Assembly: GCA_017620025.1 (NCBI GenBank)
Contig: JAFZRF010000037.1
Coordinates: forward strand, 1 to 40,108
Length of the DNA stretch: 40,108 nucleotides
Source: Ruminococcus sp.
GTDB lineage: Bacteria; Bacillota; Clostridia; Oscillospirales; Ruminococcaceae
Direction: 5' to 3'
Position numbers and translations under genes: made by a program. The notes beneath the pieces are model-generated. The model made no database searches, was not told the DNA's origin, and was given only the letters and a program-made list of their open reading frames with translations. This document shows, one piece after another, positions 3,451-10,256 of the stretch. Each line of letters starts with the position of its first letter. Position 1 is the stretch's first letter.

Positions 3451-3503
3451 TGCAACTTACCCCTCAAAAAATGCAACTTACCCTTCGATTTCTGCAACTT
3501 ACC
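3451..3503. promoter_or_regulatory. Triple direct-repeat operator upstream of the peptide exporter
   Basis: TGCAACTTACC occurs three times, at 3451-3461, 3472-3482 and 3493-3503, exactly 21 bp apart, while the 10-bp spacers differ. The last copy ends 9 bp before the -35 box at 3513, a standard activator position. Direct repeats at about 21-bp spacing are characteristic of LytTR regulators (AgrA, ComE, PlnC) that control peptide export in Firmicutes. The complementary strand TAAGTTGCA matches the LytTR half-site loosely (about 7 of 9). The regulator is not encoded in this window. Confidence 0.7.
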
Positions 3504-3512
3504 TAAAATTTG

Positions 3513-3542
3513 TTGACTTATGTGGCTATATGACGCTATAAT
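3513..3542 (+). promoter_or_regulatory. Promoter of the exporter/peptide operon
   Basis: TTGACT (3513-3518), an 18-bp spacer and TATAAT (3537-3542). Transcription would start near 3550, giving a leader of about 115 bases before ATG 3667. It lies immediately downstream of the 21-bp-phased repeats. Confidence 0.75.
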
Positions 3543-3666: not shown

Positions 3667-5964
3667 ATGAAATATCCGCATATTCAGCAGCATGACGAAT
3701 GTGACTGCGGTGCTGCCTGCTTATCTATGGTATCAAGTTACTACGGAGCTGATCACAAAATAGCCAGGATCCGTGAACTTATAAAGGTAGATACTCAGGG
3801 AGCTAATTTTCTCGGAATGACAAACGGCGCCAAGGAATTAGGCTTTGATACCGAAGCGCTCGAAGGCAGCTTTGAAGAACTGAAGGACAGTATCAGCAAG
3901 GGCGAGATAAAGTTTCCTTTTATCGCAAGAATAATCAGTGAATTCGGATTTGAACATTTCGTTGTAGTATATTCAATAGACGATGATACAGTCGTTATCG
4001 GCGACCCGGCTCATGTGAAGATAACAAAGGAAAAGGTCGAGGACTTCAGGGAGAAATGGCAGGAGCAGATACTCACCCTCTCGCCGAACAAGGATTTTGT
4101 ACGTGTAAATGAAGTGAAGGGCTCGTTCAAGAAGTACTTCAAATTCATAACCCGTCAGAAGAAAATGCTTTCCTTCATCTTTGTCCTCTCTCTTATCGTT
4201 ACGATCGTGAACATATCCGGTATATTTGTCTTCCAGTATGTCTTCAGCTACGCAACAGAAGAGACTTCGGTAACTTGCGAGCATGATCACGAACACGATC
4301 ACGATCATGAATGCGATGATGAATGTGAAGATGAAGAACCTGAAGAAGACGAGGACGAGTTTCTCGGAAAGGTCGGCACAGCTTTCATGTCGCTTGAGGA
4401 AAAAGCGGATATCATCTTCAACAATCTTGCAACAGTCTGTATAACAGTAATACTCCTGTACCTGCTTAGATGCCTTATCAATATCTTCAGAGGCTATCTG
4501 CTTGCGAGAACTGCCAAGATGGTCGATGTTTCGCTTACGACGAGCTATTACGACCACCTTATCGATCTGCCGATGGATTTCTACGGCAACAGAAAGACCG
4601 GAGAATATATGTCGAGATTCAACGACACCTCGAAGATCAGGGACGCTATTTCAACTACAGCCCTCACCATTATGCTCGATACTGTTATGGCAATCGCCTG
4701 CGGTGCAGTGCTGTTCAGGATCGACAAGATACTGTTCTGTATCACACTCGGCATACTTATGCTGTATGCGGTGGTGATGTACCTGTTCAAGAAGCCCATC
4801 AGAAACATAAACCATGTACTCATGGAGAACGAGGCGCAGGTGACTTCCTACCTCAAGGAATCAATTGACGGCATAGAGACTATCAGGTCTTACGGCAGTG
4901 AGGATTCTGCAAAAAGCAAGACAAAGAAACTTTATAATGATTTTTCAGATAAGAACGTCAAAGCTTCAACTATCTACGTTACACAGGAATCGATCGTTGC
5001 AACGATAGAATCCATAGGCATAGTCCTGCTCCTCTGGATAGGCGCTTATCTCTGCGGCAGGAATATCATCACTTTGGCAGATCTTATAATCTTCTACTAT
5101 CTTATCAGCTACTTTATCGATCCTGTAAAGAATCTTATCAATCTGCAGCCTGAACTACAGACGGCAGCAGTTGCAGCAGAGCGTCTTAACGATATCATGG
5201 ACGTTGAGCCCGAATCGAACTCAAAGCAGGAAATACCTGCTATAAAAAGCGATATACAGATACAGAACATCGATTTCAGATACGGCTACAGAGAGCTTGT
5301 ACTGAAGGATGTGAGTATGTCATTCAAGGCCGGCACGAAAACCGCTATCGTAGGCGAGACCGGCTGCGGAAAAACAACTCTTGTAAGGCTGCTTATGGCC
5401 TTCGACAAGCCTGAAACAGGCTCTGTCACCATAGGCGGTACAGACCTCTATGCTTATTCCCCTGTTTCCATAAGAAACAAGATAGCCTATATCTCTCAGG
5501 ATATATTCATGTTCTCTGACAGCATCTACAATAATCTGAAAATAGGAAATGAAGAAATATCCAATGAAGAGATAGAGGATATCTGCCGCAGATGCGGTAT
5601 AGACAGCTTTATCCGTGATCTGCCGATGGGCTACGATACCGTACTCGAGGAGAACGGCAAAAACCTTTCCGGCGGACAGAAGCAGCGTCTTGCAATAGCA
5701 AGAGCACTGCTGAGAAAGCCCGATGTACTGATAATGGATGAAGCAACGAGCAACCTTGATGTTATTACAGAAAAGAGCATTCAGACAATGATCGACGAGC
5801 TGTCCTCTGATATGACCTGTATCATCATTGCACACAGACTCAATACCATAAAGAAATGCGATAACATCTATGTAATGGACAACGGCCACGTTGCAGAGGA
5901 AGGCACTCACAGCGAGCTTCTGGCACAGAAGGGCCTTTACTACTCCTATCTGAATGTTGAATGA
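3667..5964 (+). CDS. Peptidase-containing ABC exporter (C39, PCAT) with metal-binding-like loop
   Basis: A 765-residue exporter that would cut double-glycine leaders and pump out the cores. The C39 peptidase occupies about 1-145, with catalytic Cys14 (in DCG), His97 and Asp113. Six membrane segments lie near 168-190, 252-275, 331-350, 353-373, 447-463 and 468-486. The ATPase has Walker A GETGCGKTT (563-571), signature LSGGQ (667-671), Walker B DVLIMDEATSNLD and H-loop IIAHR. The oddity is residues 204-231 between TM1 and TM2: three Cys (204, 216, 220), five His alternating with Asp/Glu (206-214), then an acidic run. With a cytoplasmic peptidase domain this loop should be outside. It makes the protein about 30 residues longer than typical PCATs. 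The ten double-glycine peptides directly downstream are the obvious substrates. GGAAGG precedes the start. Confidence 0.93.
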   Translation: MKYPHIQQHDECDCGAACLSMVSSYYGADHKIARIRELIKVDTQGANFLGMTNGAKELGFDTEALEGSFEELKDSISKGEIKFPFIARIISEFGFEHFVVVYSIDDDTVVIGDPAHVKITKEKVEDFREKWQEQILTLSPNKDFVRVNEVKGSFKKYFKFITRQKKMLSFIFVLSLIVTIVNISGIFVFQYVFSYATEETSVTCEHDHEHDHDHECDDECEDEEPEEDEDEFLGKVGTAFMSLEEKADIIFNNLATVCITVILLYLLRCLINIFRGYLLARTAKMVDVSLTTSYYDHLIDLPMDFYGNRKTGEYMSRFNDTSKIRDAISTTALTIMLDTVMAIACGAVLFRIDKILFCITLGILMLYAVVMYLFKKPIRNINHVLMENEAQVTSYLKESIDGIETIRSYGSEDSAKSKTKKLYNDFSDKNVKASTIYVTQESIVATIESIGIVLLLWIGAYLCGRNIITLADLIIFYYLISYFIDPVKNLINLQPELQTAAVAAERLNDIMDVEPESNSKQEIPAIKSDIQIQNIDFRYGYRELVLKDVSMSFKAGTKTAIVGETGCGKTTLVRLLMAFDKPETGSVTIGGTDLYAYSPVSIRNKIAYISQDIFMFSDSIYNNLKIGNEEISNEEIEDICRRCGIDSFIRDLPMGYDTVLEENGKNLSGGQKQRLAIARALLRKPDVLIMDEATSNLDVITEKSIQTMIDELSSDMTCIIIAHRLNTIKKCDNIYVMDNGHVAEEGTHSELLAQKGLYYSYLNVE

Positions 5965-6110: not shown

Positions 6111-6266
6111 ATGAGAAACATGACAGCAGAGACTATGATGCAGGCTAACGGCGGCAAGTACAGGTATATGTGTGACAGCTGCCACGCCAAGTTCAGGACA
6201 GGTGCCTTTATGGTAATCCACATTCTTACATGGCACGCAGGATTCTCAAGCTTCCACAAGATCTGA
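6111..6266 (+). CDS. Zinc-finger-like double-glycine peptide 1
   Basis: A 51-residue precursor behind AAAGGAGG, the strongest ribosome site of the array, 146 bp after the exporter. The leader MRNMTAETMMQANGG ends in Gly14-Gly15; Met-12, Met-7 and Ala-4 fill the hydrophobic positions of the LSxxELxxIxGG consensus. The 36-residue core has Tyr19-x-Cys21-x2-Cys24-x3-Phe28-x5-Met34-x2-His37-x4-His42, the full spacing of a C2H2 zinc finger, and ends FSSFHKI. It differs from copies 2-4 in carrying Trp41 before the second His and a longer aromatic tail. Export by the adjacent PCAT is inferred. The biological target is unknown. Confidence 0.88.
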   Translation: MRNMTAETMMQANGGKYRYMCDSCHAKFRTGAFMVIHILTWHAGFSSFHKI

Positions 6267-6297
6267 TCGTGAACGGTTTCACATTTGTTCTGCAGCA

Positions 6298-6322
6298 GCT
6301 GCTCCGGAACAACCGGAGCAGC
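6298..6322 (+). other. Intercistronic hairpin after peptide gene 1
   Basis: GCTGCTCCGG and CCGGAGCAGC form a perfect 10-bp stem around AACAA, with no U-run. A GC-rich hairpin without a U-tract between cistrons is more likely an mRNA stabiliser, processing block or partial attenuator than a full terminator. Confidence 0.6.
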
Positions 6323-6384
6323 ATTGACTTATGAAAATTAATCCTATGCATATATACTATATTATAATAAGGAGATGAAGTATC

Positions 6385-6537
6385 ATGACGACAATGACAG
6401 CAGAAACTATGATTCAGGCTAACGGCGGAAAATACAGGTATCAGTGTCTTCAGTGCGACAGCAAGGCTCGTACTAAGATCGCTATGCTCATGCATGTAAT
6501 CACTAATCATTTAGGCGGCAGGTTCAAGAAAATCTGA
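6385..6537 (+). CDS. Zinc-finger-like double-glycine peptide 2
   Basis: A 50-residue precursor with an AAGGAGATGA ribosome site. Leader MTTMTAETMIQANGG; the 35-residue core has Cys21-x2-Cys24-x12-His37-x4-His42. The position normally held by Phe (28) is Ala, so the core would pack less well than in copies 1, 5 and 8. The C-terminal half (HVITNHLGG, then FKKI) is shared with copy 3, and the downstream spacer is almost identical too. Copies 2 to 4 therefore look like recent tandem duplications. Confidence 0.87.
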   Translation: MTTMTAETMIQANGGKYRYQCLQCDSKARTKIAMLMHVITNHLGGRFKKI

Positions 6538-6547
6538 GAACAGACTT

Positions 6548-6587
6548 CTTCGTATTTATCACAGTTAATACAACAGTATATACGAAG
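6548..6587 (+). repeat. Intercistronic inverted repeat, copy 1
   Basis: CTTCGTAT (6548-6555) pairs with ATACGAAG (6580-6587) around a 24-base loop, just after peptide gene 2. The segment recurs after genes 3 and 4. Either it travelled with the gene duplications or it is kept as an RNA structure that tunes downstream expression. Confidence 0.6.
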
Positions 6588-6650
6588 CAGACAACCACAC
6601 TTACAAATACTTAAACATCCCAATATCAACTAACAAGGAGATGAAATATC

Positions 6651-6803
6651 ATGACCAGAATGTCATCAGAAACTATGATGCAGGCCAACGGCGGAAAGTA
6701 CAGATATCAGTGTCTTAAGTGCGGCAGCAAGTCTCGTACTTTAGTTGCTATGGTCTTGCATATGGCTACTAATCATTTAGGCGGGCCGTTCAAGAAAATC
6801 TGA
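6651..6803 (+). CDS. Zinc-finger-like double-glycine peptide 3
   Basis: A 50-residue precursor, the closest relative of copy 2. Leader MTRMSSETMMQANGG; core Cys21-x2-Cys24-x12-His37-x4-His42. Changes from copy 2 concentrate between Cys24 and His37 (GSKSRTLVAMVL) and in the tail, while the leader and ribosome site (AAGGAGATGAAATATC) are nearly fixed. That is the expected pattern if leader recognition is constrained and the core diversifies. Ser28 replaces the usual Phe. Confidence 0.87.
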   Translation: MTRMSSETMMQANGGKYRYQCLKCGSKSRTLVAMVLHMATNHLGGPFKKI

Positions 6804-6813
6804 GTACATACTT

Positions 6814-6853
6814 CTTCGTATTTATCACAGTTAATACTATAGTATATACGAAG
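6814..6853 (+). repeat. Intercistronic inverted repeat, copy 2
   Basis: CTTCGTAT (6814-6821) and ATACGAAG (6846-6853), same loop length as copy 1 and almost the same loop sequence. Confidence 0.6.
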
Positions 6854-6916
6854 CAGACAATCTCACTTACAGATGCTTATACAACACAATATCAACTAAC
6901 AAGGAGATGAAATACC

Positions 6917-7075
6917 TTGACAAAGATGACAACAGAAACTATGATGCAGGCCAACGGCGGCGCAAAATACAGATATCAGTGTACTAAGTGCGGCAGCAAG
7001 TCTCGCACAAAATTCATTATGATAATGCATATAATCACAAATCACTTAGGCACTGCAGGCATCAAAACCCTTTAA
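6917..7075 (+). CDS. Zinc-finger-like double-glycine peptide 4 (TTG start)
   Basis: A 52-residue precursor that appears to start at TTG 6917: the context AAGGAGATGAAATACC-TTG aligns base for base with the ATG starts of copies 3 and 5. The next in-frame ATG (6926) would remove three leader residues and sits far from the ribosome site. Leader [M]TKMTTETMMQANGG; an extra Ala follows Gly-Gly, so the motif is Cys22-x2-Cys25-x12-His38-x4-His43. The tail LGTAGIKTL lacks the FKKI ending of copies 2 and 3. A weaker start codon would lower its yield relative to its neighbours. Confidence 0.82.
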   Translation: MTKMTTETMMQANGGAKYRYQCTKCGSKSRTKFIMIMHIITNHLGTAGIKTL

Positions 7076-7083
7076 ACAGACTT

Positions 7084-7122
7084 CTTCGTATTCGCTGCAG
7101 TTCATGCTACAGTACAGACGAA
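7084..7122 (+). repeat. Intercistronic inverted repeat, degenerate copy 3
   Basis: TTCGT (7085-7089) and ACGAA (7118-7122) remain of the CTTCGTAT/ATACGAAG stem found after genes 2 and 3; the loop has diverged. Confidence 0.45.
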
Positions 7123-7186
7123 TCAAAGATTAAGATCTATAATCACAATCACAAACCAATATCAACTAACAAGGAGAAGAAATATC

Positions 7187-7342
7187 ATGACAAAAATGAC
7201 AACAGAAACTATGATGCAGGCTAACGGCGGCAAGTACAGGTACAGATGCAGCAGATGCGGCAGAAAGTTCCGCACCTGGATCGCTATAAAGATACATAAT
7301 GCCGTTCATCATAGTAATCCAATAATCTTCAGCGAGATCTGA
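7187..7342 (+). CDS. Zinc-finger-like double-glycine peptide 5
   Basis: A 51-residue precursor, ribosome site AAGGAGAAGA. Leader MTKMTTETMMQANGG; core KYRYRCSRCGRKFRTW, then His37-x3-His41 with His42 beside it. Phe28 and Ile34 occupy the two classical hydrophobic-core positions, so with copy 1 it fits the zinc-finger consensus best. Arg/Lys-rich around the Cys pair. It is the last copy with the TETMM type of leader. Confidence 0.88.
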   Translation: MTKMTTETMMQANGGKYRYRCSRCGRKFRTWIAIKIHNAVHHSNPIIFSEI

Positions 7343-7421
7343 TCAATGCCTTTGATCGGTCATATCTGAGCATTCACACTATTATAACTATACCACAACA
7401 CGACATAAAGGAGAAACCACT

Positions 7422-7571
7422 ATGAGAACCATGACATCAAATGAAATGATGCAGGCTAACGGCGGAAAGGCCAAATACAGATGTACATATTGCGGTGCAA
7501 AGCTTCGCAATACGTTTATGACGATATTACACGTTGTTGCAACCGGTCACCGTGGTTTTATTAAATACTGA
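7422..7571 (+). CDS. Zinc-finger-like double-glycine peptide 6
   Basis: A 49-residue precursor, the shortest, ribosome site AAAGGAGAAA. It opens the second leader type, MRTMTSNEMMQANGG, where Met-12, Thr-11, Glu-8, Met-7 and Ala-4 align exactly with LSxxELxxIxGG. The 34-residue core has Cys21-x2-Cys24-x3-Leu28 and His37-x5-His43. Five residues between the histidines is still within the C2H2 range. Confidence 0.87.
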   Translation: MRTMTSNEMMQANGGKAKYRCTYCGAKLRNTFMTILHVVATGHRGFIKY

Positions 7572-7625
7572 TCACGCTTTAAAACTAAAACACTATACCA
7601 TTATATTTATAAAGGAGAAAATACT

Positions 7626-7781
7626 ATGAGAACTATGACATCCAACGAAATGATGCAGGCTAACGGCGGAAAAATGAGATATGAATGCGTTAAGTGTGGT
7701 GCACGTTACCGCACATGGATAGGTGCAGTAGGTCACTTTATTTCAGCAGGCTACAAGCACAACCACTTCAAAAGACTCTGA
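7626..7781 (+). CDS. Zinc-finger-like double-glycine peptide 7
   Basis: A 51-residue precursor with the MRTMTSNEMMQANGG leader. Cys21-x2-Cys24-x12-His37 is kept, but no His follows within 3-5 residues; the next are His45 and His47 (x7 and x9). Either the loop is longer or metal binding differs. Similar to copy 9 across RTWxGAxGH, so the two form a subgroup. Confidence 0.85.
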   Translation: MRTMTSNEMMQANGGKMRYECVKCGARYRTWIGAVGHFISAGYKHNHFKRL

Positions 7782-7839
7782 TCAAGCTTCATTATCTAAG
7801 CACTAAAACAAAAATAATTATCGAAAAGGAGAAATTACT

Positions 7840-7992
7840 ATGAGAACTATGACATCAAATGAAATGATGCAGGCCAACGGCGGAAAGTACAGATACAGAT
7901 GTATCTATTGCGGTAAAAAGTTCCGATCCAGCTTTGGTAAGACACTTCACACTATGTTAACTCGTCACAACTCTTTTGCTTACGTCAAGTAA
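7840..7992 (+). CDS. Zinc-finger-like double-glycine peptide 8
   Basis: A 50-residue precursor, leader MRTMTSNEMMQANGG. Core with Cys21-x2-Cys24-x3-Phe28 and His37-x5-His43. Nine Lys/Arg and no acidic residue in 35 make it the most cationic member, which suits an antimicrobial or nucleic-acid-binding role (inference only). Confidence 0.87.
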   Translation: MRTMTSNEMMQANGGKYRYRCIYCGKKFRSSFGKTLHTMLTRHNSFAYVK

Positions 7993-8044
7993 TGCTTTAT
8001 AACTACAACACTACATCGATATAATACTTAAAGGAGAAATCACT

Positions 8045-8200
8045 ATGAGAACTATGACATCAAATGAAATGATGCAGGCCAACGGCGGAAGAAAGAGATA
8101 TGAATGTGTTGCGTGCGGAAAGGAGTTCCGTACATGGGTAGGTGCATTAGGTCACTATATCACACACGGCAAGCCGCATAATTCATTCTACAGATTCTGA
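8045..8200 (+). CDS. Zinc-finger-like double-glycine peptide 9
   Basis: A 51-residue precursor, leader MRTMTSNEMMQANGG. Core Cys21-x2-Cys24-x3-Phe28 and His37-x3-His41, with another His45. Shares RTWxGAxGH with copy 7 but keeps a classical His spacing. The 36-residue core ends SFYRF. Confidence 0.86.
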   Translation: MRTMTSNEMMQANGGRKRYECVACGKEFRTWVGALGHYITHGKPHNSFYRF

Positions 8201-8240
8201 TCAAACTTTATTACTAATATATCGAAAAGGAGAAAATACT

Positions 8241-8393
8241 ATGAGAGCAATGACATCAGAAGAAATGATGCAGGCCAACGGTGGCAGATACCGCTGGAAG
8301 TGCGCTTTTTGCGGACGTATGTTCATAACAAAATTCGCTACTACTATTCACTGTAAGTGCCATCACGGTACTGTACGTATCATTCCTGCGTAA
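8241..8393 (+). CDS. Zinc-finger-like double-glycine peptide 10 with two extra cysteines
   Basis: A 50-residue precursor and the last of the array, leader MRAMTSEEMMQANGG. The core keeps Cys21-x2-Cys24-x3-Phe28 and His37, then continues with Cys38, Cys40, His41 and His42. Trp19 replaces the usual Tyr. With four Cys and three His it could bind metal as C2H2, C3H or C4, or form disulfides. A strong terminator follows 90 bases downstream. Confidence 0.86.
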   Translation: MRAMTSEEMMQANGGRYRWKCAFCGRMFITKFATTIHCKCHHGTVRIIPA

Positions 8394-8481
8394 GCACAGT
8401 TTTATGATCCCCGCATCTGTCAGACCGGTACACATATAGAACAACTATCATGCAAAGACCTGTACAGCGTGCTATACAAAG

Positions 8482-8517
8482 AAAGACAGATACTTCATCT
8501 GAGGTATCTGTCTTTTT
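8482..8517. terminator. Terminator closing the peptide array
   Basis: AAAGACAGATAC (8482-8493) and GTATCTGTCTTT (8504-8515) form a perfect 12-bp stem with a 10-base loop and a T-run. On the minus strand it also ends in a T-rich tract, so it can serve the convergent operon ending at 8570. Confidence 0.85.
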
Positions 8518-8569
8518 CCTTAATATGAACCTTCAGCGTATCTGTCTTGAGAAGAACAAAGCTGAGATC

Positions 8570-9106
8570 TCACTGTATATAAACAATCGCAGTTTTTCTG
8601 AATGCTGAGATGATGCGGACGATCGCAGAATACAGCAATCCCATGCAGTAGAGTATGACGAGCAGTCTTGTCGATTCCAGCGAAAACAGACATAAGACTG
8701 CCACAAGCAGATTTACAACGCCCTGACTGAATTTCAGTTTCCAGGAGGAGGCAGCGTTACGCCTTGCTTCCAGTGCCCTGAGTATGTTGATCACGCCGCC
8801 GAAAGCGTGCGTTCCGAGCATATACAGGATCAGATAGATATGAGGGACATGAGTGAGAGTCATAGTGAAGATACCGAAATCCAGAACTATCAGCCCCACA
8901 TACAACTGTATCTTTCCGCCGACCATGTGACGTGCCATTGTGAAATAGTAAAACAGCAGGCGGATTCCGGTCACCAGCAGCGCCACTGAAAGTATGACAG
9001 CGGCGATAAGGAAACCTATCTCAGGTTCAAGCACAAGCATTACCAGACTCAGCAGGATCATCAGAATGCCGATCAGGACATTCCGTATACGTCCGATTTT
9101 ACCCAT
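8570..9106 (-). CDS. HdeD-like (DUF308) six-helix membrane protein
   Basis: A 178-residue protein of about six hydrophobic helices with short loops, the layout of the DUF308/HdeD family of small inner-membrane proteins; in E. coli HdeD relates to acid stress, while most members have no known role. AAGGAGCG precedes ATG 9106. Its start overlaps the end of the upstream gene by 8 bp, so the two are translationally coupled. It is the last gene of a three-gene operon facing the peptide array, separated from it by a terminator. Confidence 0.7.
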   Translation of the reverse strand: MGKIGRIRNVLIGILMILLSLVMLVLEPEIGFLIAAVILSVALLVTGIRLLFYYFTMARHMVGGKIQLYVGLIVLDFGIFTMTLTHVPHIYLILYMLGTHAFGGVINILRALEARRNAASSWKLKFSQGVVNLLVAVLCLFSLESTRLLVILYCMGLLYSAIVRIISAFRKTAIVYIQ

Positions 9107-10256
9107 TGTTACGCTCCTTTTCCGACTGCTTCACAAGTCTCTTGAAATCCCGTATGCCGCGGAAGCCCTTCTTGGCAAAGTCAACGGAGAATCCCGCAAG
9201 CATATTGCCCGAGCTGAAGCACTGATTTGTGACCATGCTTTTCTGAGCAAGTGCCGCAAGAATGAATTTCCCGAGGAAGGTATCGTCCTTCTTTTCCTTG
9301 GCAGCCTGCAGGTATTCCTGTTCATAACGGTTCTTGTCGAAATCGGGCACTTTCTCCCCCGACAGCGATTCTGCAAACTCAGCCCAGTCCGCACTGGCAT
9401 CAAGCTGCCGCCTTTCCAGTATCTGACGTACAGTCTCCTCATACGGGGCAACTGTCTCCCATGCGTACTGCCCGGCCTCAAAGGCGGAACGTTCACCCCG
9501 CAGATACTGCATCGCATATACGAGCTGACAGAATGCATGGTAGTAATCCGATGGATTATCCTTTACGATCTCCTCATAATCAGCCCATGCCGGAAGATAT
9601 TTGTAGCGCATAAAGCTGTAATCCGGAAGATGTCCCGCACGCCCGTGGCCGAGGTTCATGATGGAATCCTCGCTGCTCTGGAAGAGCGAACAGGTGTAGA
9701 TGCACTGCCCGATGTCATCCGGAGCTGACGCACTGTGCCTGAACTGTATCTTACGTTCTCCGTCCGGAAGTATCTCAAAGAAATGGTGGTTTGTGTTGTT
9801 TATGACGAGTGACGGAGTACCGGCAAAATACTGATGAGCCCAGGTATCGGCAATAACGTGCATCGCAACACCGACAGCCTGCAGGCTTCTTCCTTTTGCA
9901 AGCTCGACCGTCCTGACAGCAAGGTCGCCGTTCGGGCCGCAGATGAGACGGTATTTGTTCCTGTAGCGCTTTGAGCATCTCTCACGCTTTGCATACAGGT
10001 CACGGGGCAGGAAATGAAACGAAGCCCAGATGCGTGTGATATCGTGCAAGCCGACCGGATCGGTGTCTGCATCCATAAGCTCGAGCTGGAGCTGAGTAGT
10101 CGCAGCCGAGAGCGGCGCTTTCAGTCTCGACAGATATGTACGTGAACACCAGTCAACCAGCTGTGCGCTGTAGCATATCGTCAGGCTTTCCTCGTGAGAA
10201 TACCCGGCCAGAAATGCTGCACAGTATGTAGCATAGTAATGGAAATCAGCCTGCAT
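9099..10256 (-). CDS. DUF6765-like protein with HxxxDxxxH motif
   Basis: A 385-residue soluble protein. I chose ATG 10256 (MQADFHYYATYCAAFLAGYS) over the in-frame GTG at 10262 because GGGGTG lies 5 bases before it and this N-terminus fits the family as I remember it. A conserved-looking HVIADTWAHQYF near residue 135 gives His-x3-Asp-x3-His, and His/Asp residues in the first 40 positions (FHYY, SAQLVDW) could complete a metal site, as in all-helical zinc phospholipase C/S1-P1-like folds. No signal peptide. No function is established for the family. It overlaps both neighbours (8 bp downstream, 11 bp upstream), so it works with two membrane proteins. Confidence 0.65.
   Translation of the reverse strand: MQADFHYYATYCAAFLAGYSHEESLTICYSAQLVDWCSRTYLSRLKAPLSAATTQLQLELMDADTDPVGLHDITRIWASFHFLPRDLYAKRERCSKRYRNKYRLICGPNGDLAVRTVELAKGRSLQAVGVAMHVIADTWAHQYFAGTPSLVINNTNHHFFEILPDGERKIQFRHSASAPDDIGQCIYTCSLFQSSEDSIMNLGHGRAGHLPDYSFMRYKYLPAWADYEEIVKDNPSDYYHAFCQLVYAMQYLRGERSAFEAGQYAWETVAPYEETVRQILERRQLDASADWAEFAESLSGEKVPDFDKNRYEQEYLQAAKEKKDDTFLGKFILAALAQKSMVTNQCFSSGNMLAGFSVDFAKKGFRGIRDFKRLVKQSEKERNNG

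Follow-up and report, generated by a model that had tools for sequence, protein, structure and literature searches.

A tandem set of double-glycine peptides with C2H2-like, probably zinc-binding cores beside a PCAT exporter in Ruminococcus

Small exported bacterial peptides are usually shaped by disulphides, thioether rings or membranes. The described systems closest to the locus reported here are the double-glycine peptides of PCATs (ABC exporters with a C39 peptidase), such as class II bacteriocins and ComC/Blp-type peptides, together with the C2H2 zinc fingers (PF00096) and the Ros/MucR regulators. We analysed a 40,108-nucleotide stretch of a Ruminococcus sp. genome (contig JAFZRF010000037.1, assembly GCA_017620025.1; hereafter the window), in which ten tandem peptide genes follow a PCAT gene (Table 1). 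This locus resembles double-glycine/PCAT systems in its Gly-Gly leaders, adjoining PCAT, tandem paralogues and LytTR-type promoter, but its cores carry CxxC...H...H and its transporter an insert; an HlyD or CAAX partner, present at three of four plasmid PCAT loci, is absent from the window cluster. The cores share their ligand spacing with C2H2 fingers, which take the top ranks of a profile search of PDB sequences, whereas the window peptides fall below the Pfam cut-off, are single, sit behind an export leader and have hydrophobic helix positions. Ros/MucR proteins are likewise bacterial, with C2H2-type ligands; they are cytoplasmic DNA-binding proteins in which the Cys-His spacing is shorter. 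Judged by their sequence, the cores are probably C2H2-like zinc-finger peptides. No described counterpart was found for the combination of a zinc-finger-like peptide set with an exporter loop of metal-binding appearance, and searches of the open-access literature on double-glycine peptides or bacteriocins and zinc listed no paper on such peptides, judged by titles and beginnings of abstracts.

As the initial annotation had it, ten open reading frames (ORFs) of 49–52 codons each run head to tail from 6111 to 8393, all ten where it had placed them; spacers are 40–118 bp, and the cluster begins 146 bp downstream of the end of the PCAT gene. Every ORF has a purine-rich ribosome-binding site in front of it (AGGAG or a near match), and all start with ATG except copy 4, which starts with TTG. 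A profile run against the assembly to which the window belongs (75.9% complete) recovered exactly these ten peptides, and the eight neighbouring genes scanned included none for metal uptake, zinc regulation, a receptor or a modification enzyme. In each peptide the double-glycine leader (...ANGG) is constant, and the basic core behind it has 34–37 residues. Invariant in the ten-row alignment are M1, M4, M9, Q11, A12, N13, G14, G15, both Cys and two His, the second His column only by virtue of gaps placed by the aligner. The annotated motif [Y/W]-x-C-x2-C-x12-H is present in all ten cores, and the second His follows after three to five residues in copies 1–6 and 8–10, as annotated, and after seven in copy 7, which the annotation had set apart. 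Copies 1–9 contain exactly two Cys, Phe lies four residues past the second Cys in five of ten window copies (8 of 15 with the second locus described below), and net charge is +4 to +10 in 24 of 25 cores. Window leaders are hydrophobic at −4, −7 and −12 (Ala-4, Met-7, Met-12); the groove of LahT is reported to take Leu-12, Leu-7 and Val-4 of the leader (PMC6363468). In sequence terms, with such a leader and a C39 ABC transporter in the cluster, the peptides are of the PCAT-exported double-glycine kind and are predicted to be secreted.

A scan of genome contigs gave a single further locus (L009), on a contig of an uncultured Ruminococcus metagenome-assembled genome, where five peptides accompany a PCAT 80.7% identical to that of the window; a genus search returned the same contig and peptides as G096. 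The initial annotation had made its motif depend on conservation in homologues: both Cys and the first His are retained in all five L009 peptides, and they are invariant in 15 of 15 peptides from the two genomes. The full C2H2 spacing, C-x2-C-x12-H-x3..5-H, is found in 13 of the 15 cores; the exceptions, window copy 7 and the third L009 peptide, both have H-x7-H, which therefore looks like a maintained variant. Within an 18-codon core block that opens two residues ahead of the first Cys and closes at the residue preceding the first His, pairwise comparison of the 15 peptides gave mean proportions of differences of 0.74 for synonymous (pS) and 0.41 for nonsynonymous sites (pN), compared with 0.41 and 0.16 in the leaders, whose lower pS suggests that they may be partly homogenised. 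Recent duplication was ruled out as the source of the conservation, since core synonymous sites are near saturation and the Cys still present in 15 of 15. The best cross-species pairs also have pN below pS (copy 10 and the fifth L009 peptide, 0.17 and 0.82; copy 1 and the first, 0.34 and 0.64).

When a profile of the 15 cores was compared with PDB sequences (best 60 of 90 sequences at E up to 10), the first 20 rows were C2H2 finger proteins by name, the best at E = 9.1e-5; 2eog, a chain with a single finger, reached 1.3e-4. Three copies touch TIGR03949, a model for class IIb bacteriocins, through their leaders (E = 0.024–0.069). A heme c CxxCH site was rejected, His following the second Cys directly in window copy 1 only. 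The Leu position before the first His varies (M/T/A/I/K in the 15 cores), and positions +11 to +15 from the first Cys are mostly hydrophobic (V/F/I, A/G, M/T/A, V/I/L and I/L/G/M). The initial annotation had suggested that such cores might be effectors acting on nucleic acid inside target cells, a role that the C2H2-like pattern and basic net charge would allow; we consider this extremely improbable, because hydrophobic residues (V, I, F, A, G, M, L) predominate at the six positions ahead of the first His, where DNA-binding fingers have polar contact residues, and a lone finger is rarely a good DNA binder. The same hydrophobic positions favour a membrane or protein partner.

Cores with comparable ligands also occur further away. 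In G530, from another family, two peptides very different in sequence from those of the window each have C-x2-C-x13-H-x3-H; G224a has 15 residues after CxxC and then H-x5-H, G410 has 20 residues to a His, and H-x6-H, and the near-identical G027, G079 and G002 have 18 residues and H-x6-C. Among eight representative cores (the three near-identical ones counted once and G154, from outside the group, included), six have H-x3..6-[H/C] after CxxC, against 1.84 expected from tail shuffles (P = 0.0015), a suggestive excess given that the spacing range was picked after the data had been seen. These cores bear on a rival reading, in which the Cys pair is bonded as a disulphide or holds some other modification or metal while the His are conserved for an unrelated reason. 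Exported Cys pairs of class II bacteriocins are usually disulphides, which the two-Cys composition of window copies 1–9 would suit, but CxxC with two His at finger spacing in two genomes, its recurrence in G530 in a different sequence and the lack of a modification enzyme among the scanned neighbours make this quite unlikely.

The transporters provide a second line of comparison. In a tree of 16 PCATs with loop columns removed, and a second of 18 that added two plasmid PCATs, nine were set apart from the rest with support 1.000: those of the window, L009, L031, L032, L033, L034, L091, L114 (G751) and L115 (G530), with 10, 5, 1, 1, 1, 2, 1, 1 and 2 adjacent CxxC double-glycine peptides, respectively. 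Left out of the tree were the partial L099 and L100 and the PCAT-like L097, L098 and L103–L107. At seven of the nine group loci CxxC is there by selection, because peptide profiles led to them; the remaining two, G751 and G530, were picked up by searching with the PCAT (394 order genomes, two candidates scored per genome), and CxxC peptides were recognised beside both PCATs only afterwards. The third foreign match of that search, G222, falls outside the group, and its peptides are of the ordinary glycine-rich sort. At ten loci of out-group PCATs (six genomes, four plasmids), none of 25 ORFs passing the leader filter, some surely not genes, contained CxxC. The PCAT of L102 (G154) is also outside the group and without the loop insert, though a single INGG peptide with CPYC and H-x3-C lies 4.5 kb away (8899–9144).

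With the window's own genome included in each count, a profile of the ten peptides matched 5 of 100 genus genomes and 3 of 297 family genomes (one of the latter, G232, a chance-like ORF), and a leader-plus-CxxC profile (A2) matched 6 of 125 and 6 of 297, four of the family matches being weak; of these four, G273 and G178 were rejected on reading as chance-like, and the other two are the loci L101 (G350) and L102 (G154). A class search gave ten genomes beyond the window's (best E = 1e-3), and in the seven of ten loci read none had a convincing leader with CxxC. Besides G530, which was itself in the model, an order search gave seven weak genomes, one of them (G210) shared with the class search; three of the remaining six were read, two without a candidate and the third, G623 (L156), with a weak one, a 64-residue ORF at about 1477–1671 with LTGG, then CxxC and a later His (profile E = 0.009). 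Two protein scans of viral contigs gave no match, and a DNA pattern matched in six stretches, in none of which a small double-glycine ORF with CxxC was present, four being inside long unrelated ORFs and one (L162) near a contig end; 29 phage records matched at E up to 10, the best at E = 5. Of 1422 plasmid records, the eight listed have PCATs no more than 39.6% identical, and four plasmid regions were viewed. At L034 (G224), the PCAT and two CxxC peptides lie amid ORFs that by eye appear phage-like and integrase-like, a setting which suggests that the unit may be mobile. Separately, six small ORFs of L101 (G350) at 7233–8576 (four on the plus and two on the minus strand) combine a Gly-Gly leader with two CxxC pairs in a C4 zinc-ribbon pattern and may represent another, distinct type of exported zinc peptide; the 18-kb stretch around them showed no ABC transporter, and none of the five ORFs scanned reached an NCBIfam cut-off.

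The window PCAT carries its His/Asp/Glu-rich insert between predicted transmembrane helices TM1 (about 163–196) and TM2 (about 246–280). The C39 domain of PCATs is cytoplasmic, so this loop would face outwards. Seven of the nine group PCATs have the insert, with 2–6 His and 14–23 Asp plus Glu per loop region, and the PCATs of L092–L096, L116, L159, L160 and L102 have 9-residue loops without His (L158 and L161 are absent from the loop table). Its composition suggests that the insert could bind metal, or merely attract the basic cores. Together with four candidate ligands per core, such a loop on seven of nine exporters would suit peptides that capture or buffer zinc outside the cell, a role raised in the initial annotation. 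We regard that role as very unlikely: it is weakened by the lack of a metal-uptake or zinc-regulator gene among the neighbours scanned, ten diverse rather than identical copies stand only 40–118 bp apart, and basic, hydrophobic cores are left unexplained. The loop, like the promoter described below, lies outside the coordinates that the annotation covered.

Table 1 Features of the peptide locus in the window
Feature	Positions	Strand	Details
Three 9-bp direct repeats GCAACTTAC	3452..3502	+	12 bp apart; last ends 10 bp before −35
Promoter-like TTGACT-N18-TATAAT	3513..3542	+	Such matches alone are near chance (19 found, 14.2 expected in region)
PCAT, C39 peptidase and ABC exporter, 765 aa	3667..5964	+	Pfam: Peptidase_C39 1.2e-33, ABC_membrane 1e-46, ABC_tran 3.6e-33
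His/Asp/Glu-rich insert EHDHEHDHDHECDDECEDEEPEEDEDE	4279..4359	+	PCAT residues 205–231, between predicted TM1 and TM2
Peptide 1	6111..6266	+	H-x4-H
Peptide 2	6385..6537	+	H-x4-H
Peptide 3	6651..6803	+	H-x4-H
Peptide 4	6917..7075	+	TTG start; H-x4-H
Peptide 5	7187..7342	+	H-x3/x4-H; best Pfam zf-C2H2 match of the ten
Peptide 6	7422..7571	+	H-x5-H
Peptide 7	7626..7781	+	H-x7-H
Peptide 8	7840..7992	+	H-x5-H
Peptide 9	8045..8200	+	H-x3-H or H-x7-H
Peptide 10	8241..8393	+	H-x3/x4-H; four Cys
Hairpin 3' of last peptide	8482..8515	+	Terminator-like by eye; unlisted by terminator scan, which requires a loop of 3–8

Upstream of the PCAT gene, the direct repeats fit the layout given for LytTR Regulatory Systems in PMC6193735: 9-bp repeats 11–13 bp apart (usually 12), about 10 bp before −35 (a position to which they are biased), also found at bacteriocin promoters. 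HdrRM and BrsRM of Streptococcus mutans share this spacing and position according to the same text, and a LytTR gene paired with a DUF3021 gene, a further feature of such systems, is present in the window's genome; the window differs in having three repeats rather than two. A looser variant of the repeats precedes the L009 PCAT. Searched for with a relaxed repeat pattern, the window's assembly gave four sites and G096 seven, while a backward control gave none. Of the five LytTR genes in the window's assembly, two lie within 3 kb of a repeat site and one is the DUF3021-paired gene. We infer from the promoter layout that a LytTR-type regulator controls the PCAT-peptide unit. By Pfam, the genes behind five repeat places encode one each of a GH9 cellulase (its start about 470 bp from the repeats), a dockerin protein, a leucine-rich repeat protein, a GDSL esterase with dockerin and a bPH-like protein, the last just under the Pfam cut-off. 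The same triple repeat precedes this bPH-like membrane protein in L108 (G000:C45, about 1500–2157), as it does the G096 counterpart; this gene may belong to the same regulon and serve in immunity or stress.

Such regulation could also serve a signal. Peptides acting as pheromones for density or metal, with the zinc site a structural brace, would accord with the LytTR-type promoter, with the same repeats ahead of secreted enzymes and surface proteins and with the failure to find an immunity gene: there is none between promoter and terminal hairpin, and downstream neighbours differ between the window and L009. A convergent DUF308 membrane protein (8570–9106) and the bPH-like protein of L108 are nonetheless possible candidates for one. 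Ten different cores together are nevertheless unusual for a pheromone and no receptor gene is among the scanned neighbours, and we hold signalling to be unlikely. Between peptides 1 and 2, a perfect 10-bp hairpin without a T run (6298–6322) perhaps serves mRNA processing or partial termination.

Taken as a whole, we favour, with moderate confidence, an explanation in which the peptides are exported by the PCAT, probably folded by zinc, controlled through LytTR and perhaps directed at competitors. The PCAT and ten precursors would be expressed from a single transcription unit, turned on by a LytTR-type regulator; the PCAT would cut the leaders after Gly-Gly and export the cores, as leader and adjacent transporter suggest; and outside the cell each core would fold as a small C2H2-like finger, its conserved CxxC and two His holding zinc. 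More speculatively, the acidic, His-rich loop would receive the basic core as it emerges and supply or hold the metal. The least certain step is the last, in which mature peptides would act on competing bacteria at a membrane or receptor, much as class II bacteriocins do; we take this to be their likeliest role, at a little less than an even chance. A bolder form, in which these are diversified zinc-folded bacteriocins, an exported zinc-finger class whose exporter loads or proofreads zinc through its extracellular loop, uniting transport, cutting and metal insertion in one machine, seems doubtful to us. What stands of the initial interpretation is zinc-finger-like cores behind double-glycine leaders; its nucleic-acid and metal-capture roles have lost ground.

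Several results weigh against the favoured explanation. None of the ten copies reached any Pfam or NCBIfam cut-off: matches were to sub-threshold zinc-finger and zinc-ribbon models only, the best being zf-C2H2 (PF00096) on copy 5 with 20.2 bits against a cut-off of 25.2. We therefore write C2H2-like, and no known family claims the cores, as the initial annotation had supposed. PDB E-values of multi-finger proteins sum their fingers, and single fingers are weak (0.051 for the better SALL4 finger). The close copy pairs 2–3 (pN 0.19, pS 0.16) and 1–4 (0.44, 0.36) have pN at or above pS, on tiny numbers, a pattern compatible with change that became relaxed or diversifying once the copies had arisen. 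Among the distant cores, G224b and G751 have two distant His each without an H-x3..6-[H/C] pair, a spacing range that was itself picked with the data in view. The G751 loop has 34 residues with one His and 12 Asp plus Glu, and that of G530, whose peptides are the clearest distant C2H2 cases, has 19 residues with neither His nor acid. The seven inserts form one subgroup (support 0.991 in the 16-PCAT and 0.994 in the 18-PCAT tree), possibly reflecting a single event; not every group member has the insert, nor is there a clear case for its having arisen more than once. Finally, no immunity gene common to the two C2H2 clusters, in the window and L009, was found in their surroundings.

If the favoured explanation is true, a metal-folded peptide set for which no modification enzyme was found would represent a new route to stable secreted peptides and an easily mined peptide scaffold. 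The PCAT group offers a handle for searching, since the PCAT predicted the peptide type at both in-group loci that came from the PCAT search, and the loop would be a first handle on the question of whether exporters are able to metallate their cargo.

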